DNA from: Escallonia rubra
Lineage: Eukaryota > Streptophyta > Magnoliopsida > Escalloniales > Escalloniaceae
Reading direction: 5' to 3'
Length of the DNA stretch: 64,000 nucleotides
Assembly (NCBI GenBank): GCA_033065855.1
Contig: JAVXUO010002880.1
Span: 1-64,000 of the forward strand
This document shows positions 3,432 through 58,450 of this stretch, piece after piece (within the stretch, counting starts at the first letter, position 1; the number at the start of each line of letters is the position of its first letter). Below the pieces are notes generated by a model, which was not told where the DNA came from, ran no database searches, and saw nothing but the letters and a program-made list of their open reading frames with translations. A program made the position numbers and the translations under genes.

Positions 3432-5647
3432 ATGAATTTTTTCAAGCAGCTAGTGTCCACCAAATGTGGGTACCGAAGTGCCCTCAAATCTTATAGAGGT
3501 CAGTCAGTCTATTTTCTCGTTCACCAGTTTAGGCTAATTCTGCTTGTTACCTTTGGTCGCTATTTCATCATCTTGACAAAAAGGGTTGAAAAAATAGCCA
3601 AAGAGCTTGGAAATACTGATGCTAATCCTCAAGAAAGTAAATTTTTGTTTTGAATTAGCCACTGAAGTTCACTTTTTATCGCTAAGTGGTTACCTAACAT
3701 TGCGCTATAAACATTCTATGACAAAATACAAGGCAACGAATTTTTAGTACCAGAATTTAAGCTATACTTTTGATTCTAGCCAAGAATGATTGGCCTTGTT
3801 AGTGATTGATACCTCATTATCTTCTATCAACTGAAAGGCCATTCCTCTGCAGTACAAAACTGACCATCCTATATTCATTGTCTTGTACTTCAGGCCTAGA
3901 TATATCAATTTTCAGGAATTGGTGAGATCTTCGAGTGCTTATCTGTTGACGTGTCCCAAATATCACCACGTTTAAGGGGTTTCGGATCAACAAAAATTAA
4001 TTAATTTTGCTATGCAAAACCGTCTCGGTCATGTTTTCATATGAAGAGTTGTATCACAGAACGCAATACATGGATGCTTACTTTACAGATAAAGGGGGCA
4101 AATTTTTTTTTTTGGGTCACTTTATTGTATGAAGAGGATGCAGGTGTACTGCTACTTATTTGGCACTTGTGTCTGTCTGCTATGTGGCAGGTTGCATTTC
4201 TTTTCTCCATTCATTGCCAGATACTTCAGTGGACATTCACTCTCAAGAGCATGAGATAGTAATTGCCTTGGGCAGCAATGTGGGTGATAGACTTCACAAT
4301 TTCAATGAAGCCTTGGAGCGAATGAAGAAATCAGGTATTGGGATTCAGAGGCATGGTTGTTTATACGAGACTGAGCCTGCGTATGTGACTGATCAGCCCA
4401 TGTTCCTCAATTCTGCTGTTAGAGGTGTTACAACACTCGGTCCCCATGAGTTACTAGGAGTGCTTAAAAGAATTGAGAAGGAGATGGGTCGAACGAATGG
4501 GATAAGGTATGGCCCAAGACTGATTGATTTGGATATTTTGTTCTATGGGAAGTTCAGGATTGGTTCCGAGATTCTAACAGTTCCCCATGAGAGAATATGG
4601 GAAAGACCATTTGTAATGGCCCCGCTTCTGGATTTACTGGGATCGGATATAGACAATGATACAGTTGCCTGCTGGCACTCACTTTCGTCACATTCTGGTG
4701 GACTTTTTGAATTATGGAAGAAACTTGGTGGTGAATCTCTGATCGGGAGAGATGGATTGAAAAGGGTTTTGCCCGTTGGAAATCGCCTATGGGACTGGTC
4801 AAGAAAAACTTCTGTCATGGGTGTACTAAATCTGACTCCAGATAGCTTCAGTGATGGAGGGAAGTTTCAGTCTCTGGAGGCTGCAGTCTCCCAGGTCCGT
4901 TTGATGGTTGCGGAGGGGGTAGATATAATTGATCTTGGTGCACAATCCACACGCCCGATGGCGTCTAGAATTTCGCCCGAGGAAGAACTAGATAGACTTG
5001 GCCCTGTCCTGGAAGCCGTTTTAAAGATGCCTGAAGTCGATGGAAAGCTTTTATCAATAGATACCTTTTATTCGCAGGTCGCTTCTGAAGCAGTCAGCAA
5101 GGGAGCGCATCTTATAAACGATGTATCTGGTGGACAGTTGGATCCTAACATGCTTAGCGTCGTTGCAGGCCTTAAGGTTCCTTACATTGCAATGCACATG
5201 AGAGGTGATCCATCTTCAATGCAAAACAGCGAAAATCTGCAATATGACAATGTCTGCAAACAAGTTGCATCCGAGATATACGTGCGAGCTAGAAATGCAG
5301 AGTTAGCTGGCATCCCAGCTTGGCGTATTATCACCGACCCTGGAATTGGGTTCTCAAAGACAACGGAACATAATCTAGACATTGTCACTGGTTTACAAAC
5401 CATTCGAGCAGAGATTGCAAGGAAGAGTTTAGCTGTCTCTCACGCTCCTATGCTAATTGGAACATCCAGAAAAAGATTTCTAGGTGAAATATGTGGTCGC
5501 CCCAATGCAGTTGATAGAGATCCGGCAACTGTTGCTTCAGTCACTGCTGCTGTTTTGGGTGGTGCAAACATCGTAAGAGTACATAATGTAAGAGACAATG
5601 TGGATGCCGTTAAGCTCTGTGATGCAATGCTGAACCGAAAGCAGTAG
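3432..5647 (+). CDS. Bifunctional HPPK/DHPS, folate biosynthesis, mitochondrial type
   Basis: Exons: 3432-3498 and 4191-5647, with a 692 bp intron; the junction restores codon G23, giving 507 residues. Residues 1-44 form a basic, Ser-rich leader (MNFFKQLVSTKCGYRSALKS) that fits a mitochondrial presequence. The HPPK domain (about 45-175) pyrophosphorylates 6-hydroxymethyl-dihydropterin and shows ALGSNVGDR and the signature GPRLIDLDILF (from residue 130). The DHPS domain (about 228-505) condenses the product with p-aminobenzoate to dihydropteroate and shows MGVLNLTPDSFSDGG (from 232), DIIDLGAQSTRP, and a C-terminal GTSRKRF with IVRVHNV. Plants normally carry these two activities on one mitochondrial polypeptide, so length and order are typical. 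An upstream in-frame ATG at 4160 lies in the intron and is not the start. DHPS is the classical sulfonamide target. All motifs looked for are present. Confidence 0.95.
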
Positions 5648-27736: not shown

Positions 27737-27754
27737 ATGCCTGGATCATTAAGC

Positions 27755-27762
27755 TATAAATA
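27755..27762 (+). promoter_or_regulatory. TATA box of the sulfotransferase gene
   Basis: TATAAATA lies 65 bp before the ATG at 27827, which puts transcription start near 27785-27790. The same position in the inverted pseudogene reads CTATAATACCCC, so the promoter was duplicated along with the gene. Confidence 0.75.
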
Positions 27763-27826
27763 CCCCCATGAAGACATCTTGAACATCATAAAGCAAACTT
27801 TAGGCTTCAAAACCTTTCCGACCTCC

Positions 27827-28819
27827 ATGTCTACATCTCAACCTCCTCATTCTAATCTTCCTAAGATTTTAAGAGATGATGAAGCGACCCAAGAATGTCA
27901 AGCCTTGCTGTCCACCCTCCCGAAAGAAAAAACAAAGCTTATCACTCTGTGCAAGTACCAAGGTTTCTGGCATGGTGCTCCGCTGTTAGGGGGAGTCCTT
28001 GCGTGTCAGCAACACTTTCAAGCTCAAGATACAGATATCCTCCTTGCCACCAATCCCAAGTCAGGCACCACCTGGTTGAAGGCACTCATGTTCACCTTAC
28101 TTAACAGGAAGGATTGTCCCATCACCAAAGACCACCCGTTAGTCACAACTAATCCTCATGATCTCGTACCTTTCTTGGAATTTGATCTCTATGCGAATAA
28201 TCAGGTCCCCGATCTTGCTTCCTTCGCGTCTCCAAGGCTCTTTTCAATTCATTTACCTTTCACATCGCTGCCAAAATCCGTACACGAGTCTGCATGCAAA
28301 CTTGTTTATCTGTGTAGGGATCCTAAGGATGTATTTGTTTCCTTTTGGCACTTCGCAAACAAGTTAAGCCCACAAAACGTCGAAATTATCTCATTCGAAG
28401 AGACCTTCCACAAGTATTGTAAGGGAGTGAGCATATGTGGACCCTTTTGGGATCATATTCTGGGTTACTGGAATGAAAGCTTGAGAAATCCTGAAAAGAT
28501 ATTGTTCTTAAAGTACGAGGATATGAAAGAGCAGCCTCGGCTTCACTTAAGGAGACTGGCTGAGTTCATGCGTTGCCCATTTTCAGCGAAGGAAGAGACA
28601 GAAGGGGTGGTGGATGAAATCTTGGAGTTGTGCAGCTTTGGTAATCTGAGGAACTTGGAAGTGAACAAGGATGGAAAAGTGTCGACTGGCGCGGAAAGTA
28701 GTGCATTCTTCCGACGAGGTGAGGTTGGAGACTGGAAGAATTATCTGACAGCTGAGATGGGAGATCAACTAGACGAGATCATTGAAGAAAAGTTCTCTGA
28801 GTCTGGATTAAGTTTTTAA
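27827..28819 (+). CDS. Cytosolic sulfotransferase (plant SOT family), intact
   Basis: A single exon of 330 residues starting MSTSQPPHSNLPKILRDD; the family is usually 320-350 residues and often intronless. It transfers sulfate from PAPS to hydroxyl groups of small molecules; family substrates include flavonols, brassinosteroids, jasmonates and desulfo-glucosinolates. The PAPS 5'-phosphosulfate loop is NPKSGTTWLKAL (P77-W83). The likely catalytic base is His142 in IHLPF. The 3'-phosphate site is YLCRDPKDVFVSFWHF (R164, S172), and the C-terminal motif RRGEVGDWKNYL carries G298, G301 and K304 of GxxGxxK. The frame is open 30 codons further upstream, but that stretch includes the TATA box, so ATG 27827 is the start. 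It is the only complete copy of three in the window; the substrate cannot be told from sequence. Confidence 0.93.
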   Translation: MSTSQPPHSNLPKILRDDEATQECQALLSTLPKEKTKLITLCKYQGFWHGAPLLGGVLACQQHFQAQDTDILLATNPKSGTTWLKALMFTLLNRKDCPITKDHPLVTTNPHDLVPFLEFDLYANNQVPDLASFASPRLFSIHLPFTSLPKSVHESACKLVYLCRDPKDVFVSFWHFANKLSPQNVEIISFEETFHKYCKGVSICGPFWDHILGYWNESLRNPEKILFLKYEDMKEQPRLHLRRLAEFMRCPFSAKEETEGVVDEILELCSFGNLRNLEVNKDGKVSTGAESSAFFRRGEVGDWKNYLTAEMGDQLDEIIEEKFSESGLSF

Positions 28820-45229: not shown

Positions 45230-46980
45230 AGAGTTAAGCCTTTAAACTTGACAGAAGCGACCCCACTTCACACTCACTAGTCAGGTCTATCAAAAGTGTA
45301 CCGTAACGAACACTGTAAGAAAATAATCTTTTTATAGACCTATTAAGAGCATAATGCTCATATATTCTTTTCATTACGTTTACCAAGCACATACCGTTAG
45401 GACGACTGAAAATTTTAAGTGCTTGCAATCACCATAATAATGTACTTTTGACTCATCGAACCTCAAGACTTGGTGTTAGCAAGCGTTGAGCCGAGATTTC
45501 CATTAATGGTGATCAATGAAATGGACTTGAGACCCATCCCTTGTAAAGTCCTAACAACTATTTGTCCTGCAAGCCCTTCGGTTAAAAGATCCGTCAAATT
45601 TTTCGATAACTTCACATATTCCAATGTGATTACTCCTTCCGTAATCAACTGCCTCACATAGCTATGTCTAAGACCAATATGTCTAGACTTTCCATTATAT
45701 ACTTTGCTACCTGCTCGTAATAGAGTTGATTGACTATCACAACTTTTAGATATTAGAGCCATAGGCTTAGGCTACAAAGGAATTTCCAAAAGTAAGTTTC
45801 TTAGCCATTATGCCTCCTTGCCCCTACAGCTAAAGCGATAAACTCTGCTGCCATGGTAGAATCAATAATGCAAAGTCTGCTTCTTCAAACCACAGGATAT
45901 TGCGCCCCCACTAAGTGTAAAAATCCATCCACTTGCGAAAGCATAGTCCTCCTGATTTGTAATTCAACTGGCATTTGTAATCCTTCCAAAATTGAAAGAT
46001 ATCCATTGTAACATATGTCAAAATTCATAGTTCGTTTGAGGTACTTAGAGACCCTATATACTGCATTACAATGCATATTACTAGGACAACTAGTATATCT
46101 ACTAAGTTTTCCTATTGCATAAGTAATATCTGGTCTAGTATAAGTCATGGCATACATTAAACAACCTATTGTACTCGCATATTCTAGTTGTCTCACAGTT
46201 GTACTATCATTGGAAGACAACTTGATACTCTCATCAAAGGGTGTGCCAAATAGGGTGCTGTCCAAATAGTCAAACCTTTTTAACACCTTCTGTAATATTA
46301 AGAAATAATGGTTCCATAACCTTGTCATATGACAAGGTTATGGAACCATTATTTCTTATGATTTTAATTCCTAAAATTACATCAGCAACACTTATGTCAT
46401 TCATGTCAAAATCATCAGATAAGAATTTCTTTGTTTTTTACAACTTGTCTAAGCCAGACAAAAAATGCTCATACCATCTACGTAGAAGCAAATGATAACT
46501 CTTGTACTGCCATTGAACTTGCTGAACACACTCTTATCCGATTCATAAATTTTGAAACCATTAGATAGCATAATTTGATCAAACTTTGATGCCAGTGTTT
46601 TGGGACTTGCTTTAGTCCATACAGTGACTTAATCAATTTACAAACTTTATGTTCTTGCCAACGTACAACAAATCATTCCAGTTGTTGTATGTGTACCTCC
46701 TCCTCTAATTCACCATTCAAGAATACTGTTTTAACATACATTTGGTGTATTACTAACTTATGACGGATGCCAGTGACTGTCCTTGTAACTAGTGCATAAG
46801 TGTCAAAGTAATCGACACCTTCTTTTGGAAAAATCTCTTAGCCACTATCCTTGTCTTAAAATTTTCAATCGATCCATCAACTCTAAATCTTTTACACATG
46901 TTAGTATTTTTGAAGTACCAATGATTCAAAAAAGTGATCGTGCAAAAGATTGCCGCCTTTATGAGATTGTGGATTATCTC
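45230..46980 (-). mobile_element. Ty1/Copia fossil: reverse transcriptase and RNase H region
   Basis: The minus strand carries Copia polymerase sequence: YASTIGCLMYAMTYTRPDIT and KSRHIGLRHSYVRQLI are typical of the RT/RNase H end, and upstream RT pieces extend to about 46980. Gag and integrase are missing and flanking LTRs were not defined. It is old and broken in several places. It contains a 60 bp perfect palindrome at 46299-46358. Confidence 0.8.
46299..46358. repeat. 60 bp perfect palindrome
   Basis: The two 30 bp halves meet at CTTGTCAT|ATGACAAG and are exact reverse complements with no spacer. It lies within the Copia fossil. Confidence 0.95.
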
Positions 46981-50714: not shown

Positions 50715-52701
50715 GGGAGCCGATCCCTATCTATCGGTGGAGAAATAACAAATTCTCTACCGAAAATCTGGCCGTCCAAGTATACTCGTGGATGGCCCAG
50801 ATCTGTTTTTTTTTTTTAAAGTAGCAACCGCCACTCTTTCAAGCGATTGTAAAATGGACAAAAATGCCCCGGGAAGCAGAAAAAACCCTAACCGCCGGAA
50901 AGACTAGCGGTTGGGGGCCCACGAATTTCCTCCCAACAGCTACAAAGTGTAGCAATTGGGAGACACCCAACCGTTACACTTTGTAGCGGTTGACATCATT
51001 GCATTTTTTTTAAGCCTTCTTTCGTGACACCAGAGAACTTTGTCACATCCTTTGGCCCCACCACCCAACCTCTACAAAATAGTGGGGGTTGGAATCATGA
51101 CACATTTTTTTTTCTTTTGCTGCGCACCACCCAACCGCTACACTTAGTAGCGGTTGGAATCCGTAAAAAAAAATTCATTAAAAAAACCCTAAGTGACCCC
51201 ACTTTTTCATTAAAAAAAGTATTGATTAGTAAATGTGCCTCTAGTATAAACCGAAGGTGCTGCAGAGATGCTGATAGCCATCTCTAACCGCTATTTTTTG
51301 TAGTGTTTGACAACATTTTTTTTTTATTTTGTAATTTTTTTCCACCTTTTTTTTTTTTGGGTCTTATTGCACCTTAGGCACGTTAGTCAGCCCATTTCTA
51401 TAAATTTCGGGTTTTCCTATGACACCCCTATTTGGACACACTTTAGGGCCTGTTTCATAGCTTCCGAAAAATTTTGTTATTTTTTTTTCATTTTTTTTGC
51501 TCATTGCAGCTTAAGCACGCTAGTTAGACCATTTCTATAAATTTCGGCAAAAATTGAGACAAATTATGAATTTCGATTTTCCTATGACACGCCTATTCGC
51601 GCACACTTTAGTGCCAAATTCATAGCTTCCGAAAAATTTTGTTATTTTTTTTCACTGTTTTTTGCTCATTGCAACTTAGGCACGCTAATTGGGTCATTTC
51701 TATGAATTTCGGAGAAAATCAAGACAAATTATGAATTTCGATTTTTCTATGACGCGCATATTCGCCTACACTTTAGCGCCTAATTCATAGCTTTCAAAAA
51801 ATTTTGTTTATTTTTTTTCAGTGTTTTTGCTCATTGCAACTTAGGCACGCTAGTTAGGCTATTTCTATGCATTTCAGTAAAAATCGAGACAAATTATTTT
51901 TTTCGTTTCCCTATGACGCGCCTATTCGCGCACACTTTAACGCCTAATTCATAGCTTCCGAAAAATTTTGTTATTTTTTTTTCACTTTTTTTTGCTCATT
52001 GCAACTTAGGCACGCTAGTTAGGCCATTTCTATGAATTTCGACAAAAATCGAGACAAATTATTTCTTCTATTTTCCTATGACGCGCTTATTCGTGCACAC
52101 TTTAGCACCTAAAAAAAAGCTTGCAAAAAAAAAAAAAAATTGTGTCCATTTTTATGTTTCTTTAATGCACTTTAGGATTTTTTTTTTTTTAATGAAAAGT
52201 CTCCCAACCGCCACTAAGTGTAGCGGTTGCTTTGTACTTTTTTTAGGACTTTTTTAATGAAAAAGTGGGGCCACTTAGGATTTTTTTAATGAAATTTTTT
52301 TTTACGGATTCCTACCACTACAAGTGTAGCGGTTGGGTGGTGCGGCCAAAGGATGTGACAAAGTCCTTTGGTGTCACAAAAGAAGGCTTAAAAAAAAATT
52401 TTGCAATGATGCCAACCGCTGCAAAGTGTAGCGATTGGGTGTCTCCCAATTGCTACACTTTGTAGCGGTTGGGAGGAAATTCGTAGGCCCCCAACCGCTA
52501 GTTTTTCCAGTGGCTGGGGTTTTTTCTGCTTCTCGGGGCATTTTTGTCTATTTTTGTAACCGCTTGAAAGAGTGGCAGTTGCTACTTTTTCAAAAAAAAA
52601 AAAAAAAAAACAGATCTGGGCCATTCACGAGTACACGTGGACGGCCAGATTTTCGGTGGAGAAATTGTTATTTCTTCACCGATAGATAGTGATCGGCTCC
52701 C
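50715..52701. mobile_element. Long-TIR fold-back transposon inserted in a TA microsatellite
   Basis: Inverted arms of roughly 460-505 bp (50715-51221 and about 52243-52701) both begin GGGAGCCGATC. They share CTATCTATCGGTG, AAAATCTGGCCGTCCA and repeated AACCGCTACA(AAG)TGTAG motifs. The middle is tandem repeat (51340-52130) and no transposase was seen. Both ends abut (TA)n tracts, so the target duplication length cannot be read. A MULE or Foldback-type element is likely. It sits at the broken 5' edge of a sulfotransferase pseudogene. Confidence 0.8.
51340..52130. repeat. Five tandem units of about 155 bp inside the fold-back element
   Basis: Each unit contains TTGCTCATTGCAACTTAGGC, then ATTTCTATGAATTTCG, TTCCTATGACGCGCxTATTC, GCACACTTTAG and ATAGCTTCCGAAAAATTTTG. 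Units start near 51340, 51490, 51650, 51825 and 51970 and differ by scattered substitutions. Confidence 0.85.
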
Positions 52702-52734
52702 TATATATATATATATATATATACACTGTAAGAG

Positions 52735-53127
52735 AGTGAGCGCGTATGGACCCTTTGGGATCATATTATGGGTTACCGGAACGAAAGCTTGAGAAATCCT
52801 GAAAAGATATTGTTCTTGAAGTACGAGGATATGAAAGAACAGCCTCGGCTTCACTTAAGGAGACTAGCTGACTTCATGCGTTGCCCATTTTCAGCGAAGG
52901 AAGAGACAGAAGGGGTGGTGGATGAAATCTTGGCCTTGTGCAGTTTTGATAATCTGATAAACTTGGAAGAGAACAAGGATGGAAAACTTTCGTCTGGCAT
53001 TGAAAATAGTGCATTCTTTCGACGAGGTGAGGTTGGAGACTGGAAGAATTATCTGACAGCTGATATGGGAGATCCACTAGACAAGATAATTGAGGAAAAT
53101 TTATATGGGTCTGGATTAAGTTTTTGA
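52735..53127 (+). pseudogene. Sulfotransferase pseudogene, 3' part only
   Basis: It matches the intact gene from the codons for YCKGVSICGPFWDHILG to the stop; the larger open part is 52768-53127. The GxxGxxK region RRGEVGDWKNYLT is intact, but the PAPS loop, His and 3'-phosphate site are missing because homology starts immediately to the right of the TA tract and fold-back element. A 1-base difference near the beginning shifts the frame relative to the intact gene. The 3' flank to about 53240 (TTTAATTCAGCAT, CTTGTCTGTTTGTTTTCT) is also homologous to the intact gene's 3' region. Confidence 0.9.
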
Positions 53128-53249
53128 TTGATTAAGCATAGTATGTGTGTGTTCCACGTAATGTTTAATTCAGCATATTATGCATTGCTTCTTGTCTGTT
53201 TGTTTTCTATGTTGTTTGAAGTCTTTAGTAGGTCGGAATGGTCATCTTA

Positions 53250-54345: not shown

Positions 54346-54560
54346 TTGTAATAAGCGTAGAAAAACAAGAATGGCAAAACAAAAGATAAATTAAACAACC
54401 ACCTTATACAACGCCTGGAATCGGACTCAAACAAGAAGATTATTTGACATGACCATTTCGAGCGACTAATGACTTCAAACAAAATAGAATGCAAACAGAC
54501 TGCAAGCAATGCATGATATGCTGCATTAATTACTATGAAGCACACGCCAATGATGCTTAA

Positions 54561-55675
54561 TTAAAAACTTAATCCAGACCCATAGAACTTTTCTTCAATG
54601 ATCTTGTCTAGCCGATCTCCTATCTCAGCTGTCAGATAATTCTTCCAGTCTCCAACCTCACCTTTTCGAAAGAATGCACTATTTTCAATGCCAAATACAA
54701 TTTTCCATCCTGTTCACTGTGAACAAGGATGGAAAATTGTATTTGGCATTGAAAATAGTGCATTCTTTCGAAAAGGTGAGGTTGGAGACTGGAAGAATTA
54801 TCTGACAGCTGAGATGGAAGATCGGTTAGACAAGTTCACTTCCAAGTTCCTCAGATTACCAAAGCTGCACAACCCCAAGATTTCATCCACTACCCCTTCT
54901 GTCTCTTCCTTCGCTGAAAATGGGCAATGCATGAACTCAGCTAGTTTCCTTAAGTGAAGCTGAGGCTGTTCTTTCATATCCTCGTACTTCAAGAACAATA
55001 TATTTTCAGGATTTCTCAAGCTCTCGTTCCAGTAACCCAGAATATGATCCCAAAAGGGTCCACATGCATATGTTCACTCCCTTACAGTACTTATTGAAGG
55101 CCTCTTCAAAAGAGATTATTTCGAGGTTTTGTGGTCTTAACGTGTTTGTGAAGTGCCAAAGGGAAACAAAAGCATCCTTAGGATCCCAACACAGATAGAC
55201 AAGTTTGCAAGCAGACTCGTGTACGGATTTTGGAAGCGATACGAATGGTAAATGAGTTGAAAAGAGCCTTGGAGACACGAAGGAAGCAAGATCAGGGACC
55301 TTATTATTCGCATAGAGATTAAGTTCCAAGAAAGGTACGAGATCTTGAGGATTAGTTCCGACTAACGGGTGGTCCTTGGTGATAGGACAATGCTTCCTGT
55401 TAACTAAGGTGAACATGAGTGCCTTCAACCAGGTGATGCCTGACTTGGGAGTGGTGACAAGGAGGATATCGGTATCTTGGGCTTGAAAGTGTTGTTGACA
55501 TGCAGACTCCCCCCAACTGCCAAGCACTATGCCAGAAACCTTGGTATTTGTATATAGGGGCAAGCAATTCTTTTTCTTTGGGGAGGGTGGACAGCAACGG
55601 ATTTCCTTCTTGGGTCAGTTCATCTTCTTTTAAGAACTTATGAAGATCAGAAAGAGGTGGTTGAGATGTAGGCAT
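54561..55675 (-). pseudogene. Inverted sulfotransferase pseudogene with internal palindrome
   Basis: The minus strand starts MPTSQPPLSDLHKFLKEDEL at 55675 and ends at the conserved YGSGLSF stop (54561-54563). The PAPS loop reads PKSGITWLKAL (Thr to Ile) and the 3'-phosphate site YLCWDPKDAFVSLWHF has Trp in place of the key Arg. Frame changes occur near the WHSAWQLGGV region and near ICMWTLLGSYSG. An extra 116 bp inverted copy of its own 3' coding segment (54719-54834) interrupts the frame after LRNLEVN. The TATA-like CTATAATACC upstream at about 55736-55746 was duplicated too. It cannot encode a working enzyme. Confidence 0.92.
54603..54834. repeat. 232 bp near-perfect palindrome within the sulfotransferase pseudogene
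   Basis: The left arm 54603-54717 and right arm 54719-54834 are reverse complements with about four mismatches and one single-base indel. The centre is GTTCAC-T-GTGAAC. Both arms are coding sequence for KxxLTAE-GD-LDK and FRRGEVGDW-type residues of the sulfotransferase C-terminus. The same GTGAAC word lies at the outer breakpoint (54835-54840 region) and in the intact gene. Confidence 0.95.
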
Positions 55676-55851
55676 AGAGGTGAGAGAGGTTTTGAAGCCC
55701 AAATGTTGCTTTTGGATGTTCAAGATGTCTTGATAGGGGTATTATAGCTTAATGATCCAGGGCATTTAGCAATATAATGAAGCACTGAAACTGGACCATT
55801 TATATATATATCATGTAAATAGGTGGGTGTAATAAATCTATATATATTTGC

Positions 55852-56324
55852 AAGGCTTCGTTTGATAAAAAAATTGGTTTTCAGTTTCTAAAAAAAAAAA
55901 AAATTAAAGAGCAGTTTAAATTTTTATTTTTTTTACAAAAACAAGTGGGTGTTTGATAACCTAATTTTATTTTGAGTTTTTTTTTTTTTTTTTGGTGTTT
56001 GATAATTTAGTTTTTTTTTTTGTGGTGGTTTGCGATGGCGGTGGCCGGAGGTGGCTGTCGGCCGCCGGGCAGCCAGAGATGGTTGTCGGCCGCCAGTGGT
56101 CGCCGAAGGTGGCTGCCAGCAGTGGGAGGGTGGTGGTGGGGGTCTCAAAAAAAAAACCAAAAGTGAAAGAAAAAAAAAACTCATTTTTGGAGTTTCTTTT
56201 TTCTTTAGTTTAAAAACTGATTTTTTAAATTAGAGAAGGAAAAAAAATGGTTACCAAACTCGCTTTTTTTTTTTTTTCCAATTTCCAAAACAGAAAAAAA
56301 AAATTGAGTGTCAAACGGGGTCTT
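55852..56324. mobile_element. MITE-like element with CGTTTGATA ends (related copies at 63271 and 63872)
   Basis: The left end is AAGGCTTCGTTTGATAAAAA and the right end in reverse is AAGACCCCGTTTGACACTCA. The interior combines long A/T homopolymers with a GC-rich GGTGGC segment. No transposase and no certain target duplication were found. Confidence 0.5.
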
Positions 56325-56441
56325 AGTTGCCCGAATCGATTCCAAATAATTCAAGCTTAACCGATGAGCAAGTTGCCTAAAGATTTTGAGATTATTCATT
56401 TCTAACCATGAGATTCGTCTCTAATTGTAAACAGGTGGATG

Positions 56442-57218
56442 CGGTGGCGGAGGTAGCTCGGGTCACAAGGGGGCACCTACCAACCCACCTGTTGTCCTCC
56501 AAACTGAGTCTTTTATATATGTATTATGTGTGTAACTTTATGGACGAATGTACCAAATGAAGATGTGACTTAAGCAAGCTTAACTCTATTTGGTCGTTTC
56601 ATCGCAGGACACAAAAAAAGAGAATGACTATTAAAGTGAATACATATAGAGGGGAAGAGCATGTTATGTCCTTGTCTCTTCCGTAGAATTATGGCTTCCA
56701 ATTCTTTCTCCTCGAGTTCTCCTTCTTAGTTTTTCCATCTTCTTAATAAAGAAAAGGCCTTATTCTTGTTAACACGTCTCTTCATTGCTTCATTACCCCC
56801 AATTATATCTTGTCTCTCTCTTACAGAGTTGGCTATCTTGCACGAAAGCTTCAAGTATTAAAAAGCAAAGTTTGATGCGTAAAAACTCTCTACTGATTCA
56901 CCAAATCAATTTTTTAATACTAAGGTACTATTTTTTTTTTTCAATATTTTTGTAAATTTAAGGTTTAATTTCTAGGAGTGACAGATTTTGTGATTTCGTA
57001 AATAGACCCCTTTTTATTTTTTTGCCCACTTTACTAAATGTTTATTTGTTTTGTTTCTAGTACATAGTTCTATGCATTTTTTTTAGGAAGAAACGCATTA
57101 CTTTTACTAAATATTGTAAAACAACCGGCTTTGCTTTGTATTTTTGTAGTTAATTGATTGCTGAATTTTTTAATCCTTTTCGTGCCCACTTCAAACAATT
57201 TATCTGGCTCCACCACTG
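56442..57218. mobile_element. hAT-like non-autonomous element with CxGTGGxGGAG ends
   Basis: The left end is CGGTGGCGGAGGTAG and the right end in reverse is CAGTGGTGGAGCCAGATAA, a terminal motif common to plant non-autonomous elements. Flanks GGTGGATG (56434-56441) and GGTGTATG (57219-57226) fit an 8 bp target duplication with one mismatch. The 777 bp interior is AT-rich and non-coding. Confidence 0.6.
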
Positions 57219-57226
57219 GGTGTATG

Positions 57227-58450
57227 TTTTACATGTTTCTTTGCACGTACGTGGTTCAATTAAGCCCAAGATCATTTGCACAAGTAATTGTGAGATTGAC
57301 TTCTAATTGTCAACAACACGCATGAAGCACGTTGCAGCAAACAAAAGAAAATTGAAAAGCGGGACAGTAAAGTAAGCGTTGCATGTGAGGCTCCAGGTCT
57401 CCGATCCATACCAGATACATGCTTCTATAAAAACTAGGCTTAAAGGCTTCCATGTGTTTGTACATATAAGCTCCTTGGAGTTTATGTCGATCGCTTTGAG
57501 TTGTCCGAATACGCGTATGGGTTATGGTTTTCTTAGTGCATGGGTTATGGTTTTCTTAGTGCTTATAGTCGTAGGCGATCAAATATATATTATGTTAATG
57601 AAGTTCTTAAAGTTAAAGAAAAGTGTCATCCAAGTCCAATAATTTGGAGAAAGACATTGTCTTCGAGGGTCAGAAATAATGCTCGAGGACAATGCCATGC
57701 ACGCCTCTTCCAATTCAACAACTCCGTCTCTGCTTGAATTTTACAACATGAACTAGTTCTAATCTCGCGTGTCGCCTAAGGTACCGATGTGTGCTAAGTA
57801 TGAAAATACTCATTAAGTTACATCTAATCAATTCTAACAAAGTAAATAACAGCAATAACAATTAAAATCTCCATAATAAGTTTATTTCTACCTCTCCACC
57901 ATAATTATTCTTGTCTACTGCTTATATTTTTGTTAAAGTTTAGTAAATAGTATCATTAGTGGAATAATGTAAGCAAAAAGGATATCCAAAGAATTCCAAA
58001 GTTGGTCAAAACATTACCTAATTCTTTTTATAACAAATAGCGACCAATAAAAAATCCTAAAAAAATTGGAGTGTAGAACTATTCAACTCAAAAAGAAAAT
58101 CGCTGAAGTTCTTGGATTCAAAAAGAAGGGGAAAACATGATAATATCACATGAACAAAGGGAAGAAAGAATTATACTACAATCCGATAACATAAGTGAAA
58201 CCATCCAAAAGTCAGGAAATTATCAAAGATCCATGTATCAAAATTTGGTGTGTTTGAAACAGATTTTAGATTTTAGATTTCAATTTTTGTTTTTGTTTTC
58301 AGAAAAACCAAAACCTCTTTCAATTTTCTATTTTTACAAAACTTATGGGTTATTTGATAATAGTTTTGTATAACTGCTTTTTACTTTTGTTTTTCTTTTC
58401 AATTTTTCCTCTCTTCTCTCTTCTATTTTCCTCTTTTCTTTCTTTCACTT
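57227..58450. other. Unassigned AT-rich DNA
   Basis: No gene was recognised. A 27 bp direct duplication (ATGGGTTATGGTTTTCTTAG.. at 57517 and 57540) is present. Bases 58250-58370 resemble the GTTTGAAAC/TTTGATAAT MITE ends but were not delimited. Confidence 0.4.

Follow-up and report, generated by a model that had tools for sequence, protein, structure and literature searches.

A foldback in a decaying sulfotransferase pseudogene of Escallonia rubra, probably the scar of a copying accident

A sulfotransferase pseudogene of Escallonia rubra carries part of its own coding sequence twice, head to head, which raises the question of whether this inverted duplication is a young small-RNA locus aimed at its own gene family or a scar left behind by faulty copying of DNA. 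Both readings had been put forward in an earlier note on this DNA. We analyzed the locus within the whole 64,000-nt stretch of contig JAVXUO010002880.1 (positions 1 to 64,000, assembly GCA_033065855.1), called the window below. The coordinates of the features are collected in Table 1.

Table 1. Sulfotransferase loci of the window and parts of the foldback
Feature	Position	Strand	Remarks
Intact sulfotransferase gene A, 330 aa	27827..28819	+	PF00685 profile positions 1-255 of 255, E 6.4e-78; possible silencing target
Copy B, 5'-truncated sulfotransferase, 3' part kept	52725..53245	+	lacks the palindrome; arranged tail to tail with C
Sulfotransferase pseudogene C	about 54560..55786	-	body relative to A: 2-bp deletion and 4-bp insertion, both frameshifting
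Direct arm	54603..54717	-	original copy of the C-terminal sulfotransferase segment in C; same order as in B and in A (28661-28776)
Palindrome centre, one base, T	54718
Inverted arm	54719..54834	+	backward copy of the direct arm; eight C-only changes common to the direct arm
Net insertion, 122 bp relative to A and B	54712..54833	-	115 bp inverted plus the 7-bp repeat AGTGAAC; length not divisible by three
7-bp direct repeat AGTGAAC, outer copy	54834..54840	-	inner copy 54712-54718
TATA-like box of C	55736..55748	-	one base shorter than that of A (27753-27767)
About 1.6 kb not present in A	55787..57404		separates C from its homologous region upstream; either gained by C or lost from A

A tblastn search with the intact protein revealed three sulfotransferase loci in the window, A, B and C. 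The best solved relative of the gene A protein was 1q44_A (E 1.4e-108), which we take to be an Arabidopsis protein. The body of C differed from A at 87 of 838 positions (10.4%), and these differences fell on the three codon positions 27, 24 and 36 times, with no significant preference for the third (chi-square p 0.26, n = 87). The alignment with A and B supported the view that the duplication is hosted by a pseudogene. The palindrome insertion was absent from A and B, both of which run straight through the site. Within the aligned segment B alone differed at three columns, and at seven further columns B and C agreed against A, so copy B appears to be nearer to C than A is, in a comparison made without an outgroup. 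Copies B and C (52725-53245 and 54449-55088) also make up a wider tail-to-tail inverted pair, about 1.2 kb apart, which is a possible source of a long hairpin. The truncated 5' end of B is directly adjoined by an element-like unit at 50715-52701, flanked by TA-rich stretches, with ends GGGAGCCGATC; its long inverted repeats are broken into several pieces (50715-51217 against 52250-52701). Elsewhere in the window, the open frame at 4133-5647 codes for a fusion of HPPK and dihydropteroate synthase (PF01288, PF00809).

The head-to-head duplication of 116 bp with a 1-bp centre described in the earlier note was confirmed, the direct arm being 115 bp and the inverted arm 116 bp long around the single T. 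Alignment of both arms showed three substitutions and one indel. The indel had thus been counted correctly, but the number of mismatches had been given as about four; the fourth may be the one that appears when the arms are extended by four bases, as in the ungapped repeat search (54599-54711 against 54726-54838, 113 nt, 96%), which takes in one more mismatch. The longest perfect arm with a spacer of up to 14 measured 90 bp (54622-54815, spacer 14). On the minus strand, C reads through GGAAGTGAAC into the backward copy of 115 bp, which ends in GTTCAC, and continues through AGTGAACAGG to the normal 3' end. The word GTGAAC/GTTCAC that had been noticed at the breakpoints was confirmed, and its most fitting description is a direct repeat of 7 bp, AGTGAAC on the minus strand, that flanks the inverted 115 bp. 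The counterpart in the intact gene, previously placed at about 28670-28780, was found at 28661-28776, and the inverted arm was 85% identical to A over 121 bp and 90% identical to B over 115 bp.

A chance origin of the foldback was ruled out by three comparisons. The perfect arm of 90 bp stood against arms of 9-16 bp in 10 first-order Markov sequences (spacer up to 14). The minus-strand RNA of 54560-54860 had a predicted folding energy of -211.8 kcal/mol (z -25.6), a value that none of 100 shuffles equalled, and 301-nt plus-strand segments drawn at random from the window (n = 298) gave a mean of -73.5 and a lowest value of -135.6 kcal/mol. The expectation that a transcript across the palindrome would form a long hairpin is borne out by this very stable predicted fold. 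When a transcript of 2,376 nt spanning B and C was folded in silico from either strand, the foldback kept 104 pairs, and pairing between B and C amounted to 378 pairs on the plus strand or 374 on the minus strand. The window was also compared with itself by blastn, a foldback being defined as an alignment of 40 bp or more with a spacer of up to 300 and an E of up to 1e-3. Two of the 11 matches were at least 95% identical, namely 54603-54834 and a palindrome at 46299-46358.

This second locus is a perfect 60-bp palindrome with 30-bp arms and no spacer, apparently another foldback scar, in a remnant that is presumably Copia-like; on its minus strand the reading GIKIIRNNGSITLS continues into its own backward copy. 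The open frame of the remnant (45885-46337) had no Pfam match. The occurrence of a spacerless palindrome there indicates that such scars arise in the window without a link to sulfotransferases.

The aligned segment contained 12 changes special to C, column 117 of the segment alignment being an edge effect and excluded from the counts. Eight of these changes were present in both arms, seven of them substitutions and one a frameshifting 1-bp deletion; A and B agreed with each other at six of the eight positions and differed at two. The other four were confined to a single arm: the direct arm had lost one base and turned one G into A, the inverted arm had one G to A and one C to T, and each of the four could be polarised by A, B and the other arm. 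Because the eight C-only changes occur in both arms, the copied segment came from C itself, already frameshifted and decaying, unless the arms have since converted each other, and copying of an arm from A or B was ruled out on the same grounds. Transposon terminal repeats were likewise rejected as the source, since the arms consist of the coding sequence of C around a one-base centre. One scan for 35-mers shared with viral contigs returned none. The order of events can be read as decay of C, then copying, then the single-arm changes, provided that there was no arm-to-arm conversion; the arms are 97% alike, a likeness that such conversion or selection for pairing could also give, and conversion could also have carried the frameshift into both arms. 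The arms diverge by 3/115 (2.6%, Poisson range 0.5-7.6%). At 7e-9 or 2e-9 substitutions per site and year, the foldback would be about 1.9 My (range 0.4-5.7) or about 6.6 My (1.3-20) old, respectively, and arm-to-arm conversion would make these estimates too young.

The anatomy of the foldback, its source in C and not in A or B and, if the arms have not converted each other, the order of events are observed; we infer a replication or repair mechanism and an absence of function. With a probability of about 0.8, the foldback is a neutral mutational scar in an already decaying pseudogene. During replication or break repair of the decaying C, the growing strand would have moved over to the sister strand or its own, run backwards for 115 bp and rejoined the first template a few bases ahead of the departure point, which would result in the 115-bp foldback with its one-base centre and 7-bp direct repeat. 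The insert was copied from its own locus and not from a relative, as in a short-range template switch, and it is a reverse-complement copy of adjacent sequence that is absent from the relatives, here the paralogues A and B, in which the state of the site before the event is preserved in two insertion-free copies. In the coordinates of A the switch points lie at 28666, about 28776, 28661 and 28660. Point 4 of the four-point description stands ahead of point 1, an order reported for many great ape events (PMC7954356). The resumption of the original strand and order, together with the adjacent switch points, fits that description (PMC7954356; PMC8794818), and template switching is reported to create perfect stems in one event, human microRNA loci included (PMC8794818). 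The slight microhomology seen by eye at the switch points, 0 and 1 base or the imperfect TGAAC/TGATC, counts against a template switch. As a whole, the copying from C after its decay had begun supports the template-switching origin suggested before, understood as template switching or templated repair, and the replication scar, which the earlier note had offered as its alternative, is a better reading than a small-RNA locus. If so, the foldback is a clean plant example of how a single copying accident turns a gene family member into a long foldback; two neighbours preserve the earlier state, and the changes can be put in order.

Other explanations of the same sequence were weighed against the copying accident. 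In place of a replication switch, a staggered break with 7-base overhangs could have been filled by a templated inverted insert of the polymerase theta type, and the resulting sequence would look the same. Foldback chimeras are known library artefacts, but an artefact of assembly or library is very unlikely here in view of the four arm differences, each polarised as described, and of the return to the original strand beyond the inverted 115 bp, up to the gene's own 3' end. A MIRNA gene is recognised by a precise miRNA/miRNA* duplex in the reads, and template switching has reportedly been described as a source of de novo miRNAs. Inverted duplication of target genes, pseudogenes included, yields young MIRNAs that may begin siRNA-like (PMC1790633, PMC3237417), and the similarity of the arms to the gene family does extend beyond a 21-nt site, as in MIRNAs of this origin. 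However, 115-bp arms with three mismatches and one bulge, 90 bp of them perfect, are unfavourable for DCL1 by the account in PMC1790633, without amounting to a formal bar, and no Rfam family reached the gathering score in the window, a search in which an unrecorded family would be missed. The same source describes DCL1 as having little activity on perfect dsRNA and adds that heterogeneous siRNAs may be the first products of inverted duplications that are young and large, and that a new MIRNA locus may go through a mixed-siRNA stage (PMC1790633); perfect dsRNA is described as processed by DCL4 and DCL2 (PMC4238362). The near-perfect 115-bp stem suits the production of siRNA rather than microRNA (PMC1790633, PMC4238362). 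A microRNA gene at the foldback is unlikely, and a young one giving a single dominant DCL1-dependent duplex aimed at sulfotransferases is extremely improbable.

The remaining alternative to a neutral scar is a natural hairpin-RNA locus, in which C would still be transcribed; DCL4, DCL2 or DCL3 would cut its foldback into mixed siRNAs, which would silence A and direct methylation to C and B. The predicted folds provide the long double-stranded stem of such a locus, very stable and retained in the B-C transcript from either strand. The inverted arm contains 96 21-mers, of which 24 match A exactly and 27 match B exactly; for the direct arm the figures are 22 and 27 out of 95. The longest exact run to A, 44 uninterrupted nt in the inverted arm, encodes GEVGDWKNYLTAEM, part of a conserved motif that we take to be PAPS-binding. 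As the stem is predicted to fold stably and arm 21-mers match A exactly, siRNAs from the foldback against A are possible. The layout is that of the Arabidopsis SRK pseudogene inverted repeat that suppresses intact SRK (PMC7075917), and in rice it is no rarity for a pseudogene to have at least one antisense small RNA, as 2,350 did in five further datasets (PMC2708354). On the other hand, in the same survey, whose authors note its limited sequencing depth, a stricter density threshold was passed by 145 of 11,956 rice pseudogenes, and two hairpin-forming inverted pairs were tabulated (PMC2708354). Also to be weighed against transcription of C are its TATA-like box, GCTATAATACCCC against GCTATAAATACCCCC in A, and the 1.6 kb absent from A just upstream; the change in the box may lie in A or in C, and other promoters for C are possible. 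That 1.6 kb includes a MITE-like stretch (55853-56330) with ends like CTTCGTTTGATA and TGTCAAACGGGGTC by eye. Altogether, we regard a hairpin-RNA locus as unlikely, and slightly more doubtful still is that siRNAs of the foldback now act on intact A, 26 kb away, through the 44-nt match, as a silencing locus at its first step after a single template switch. Expressed maize sequence is described as containing hairpin-like regions almost everywhere, and these regions correlate with small RNAs and CHH methylation (PMC10760457), hence a few small RNAs at the foldback alone would not prove a role. If small RNAs were found, they would link the birth of hairpins by replication error with the view that new silencing loci start from inverted duplications; if there are none, the foldback is an ordinary scar.

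Among known systems, the foldback resembles the hairpin-creating template-switch mutations (PMC8794818, PMC7954356) in that a reverse-complement copy lies beside its source, the switch points can be placed and the before state is given by relatives. The mutations treated in these papers come from mammalian and great ape genomes and rRNA genes, whereas the before state of the foldback comes from paralogues. Copies B and C, like the rice inverted pseudogene pairs with small RNAs, are arranged tail to tail less than 2 kb apart, but the rice pairs were chosen for their mapped small RNAs (PMC2708354). With the inverted-duplication genes MIR161 and MIR163 the foldback shares arms of extended similarity to a protein-coding family, and it differs from them in its long, nearly perfect stem (PMC1790633, PMC3237417). 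SRKIR-Col-0 and SRKIR-C24, inverted repeats inside Arabidopsis SRK pseudogenes, are likewise inverted part-gene duplications matching an intact relative; these repeats of 502 bp and 434 bp have mapped small RNAs, whereas the foldback measures 115 bp (PMC7075917). For SRKIR-Col-0, suppression of SRK mRNA was demonstrated experimentally, and it is the nearest working precedent for the foldback (PMC7075917).
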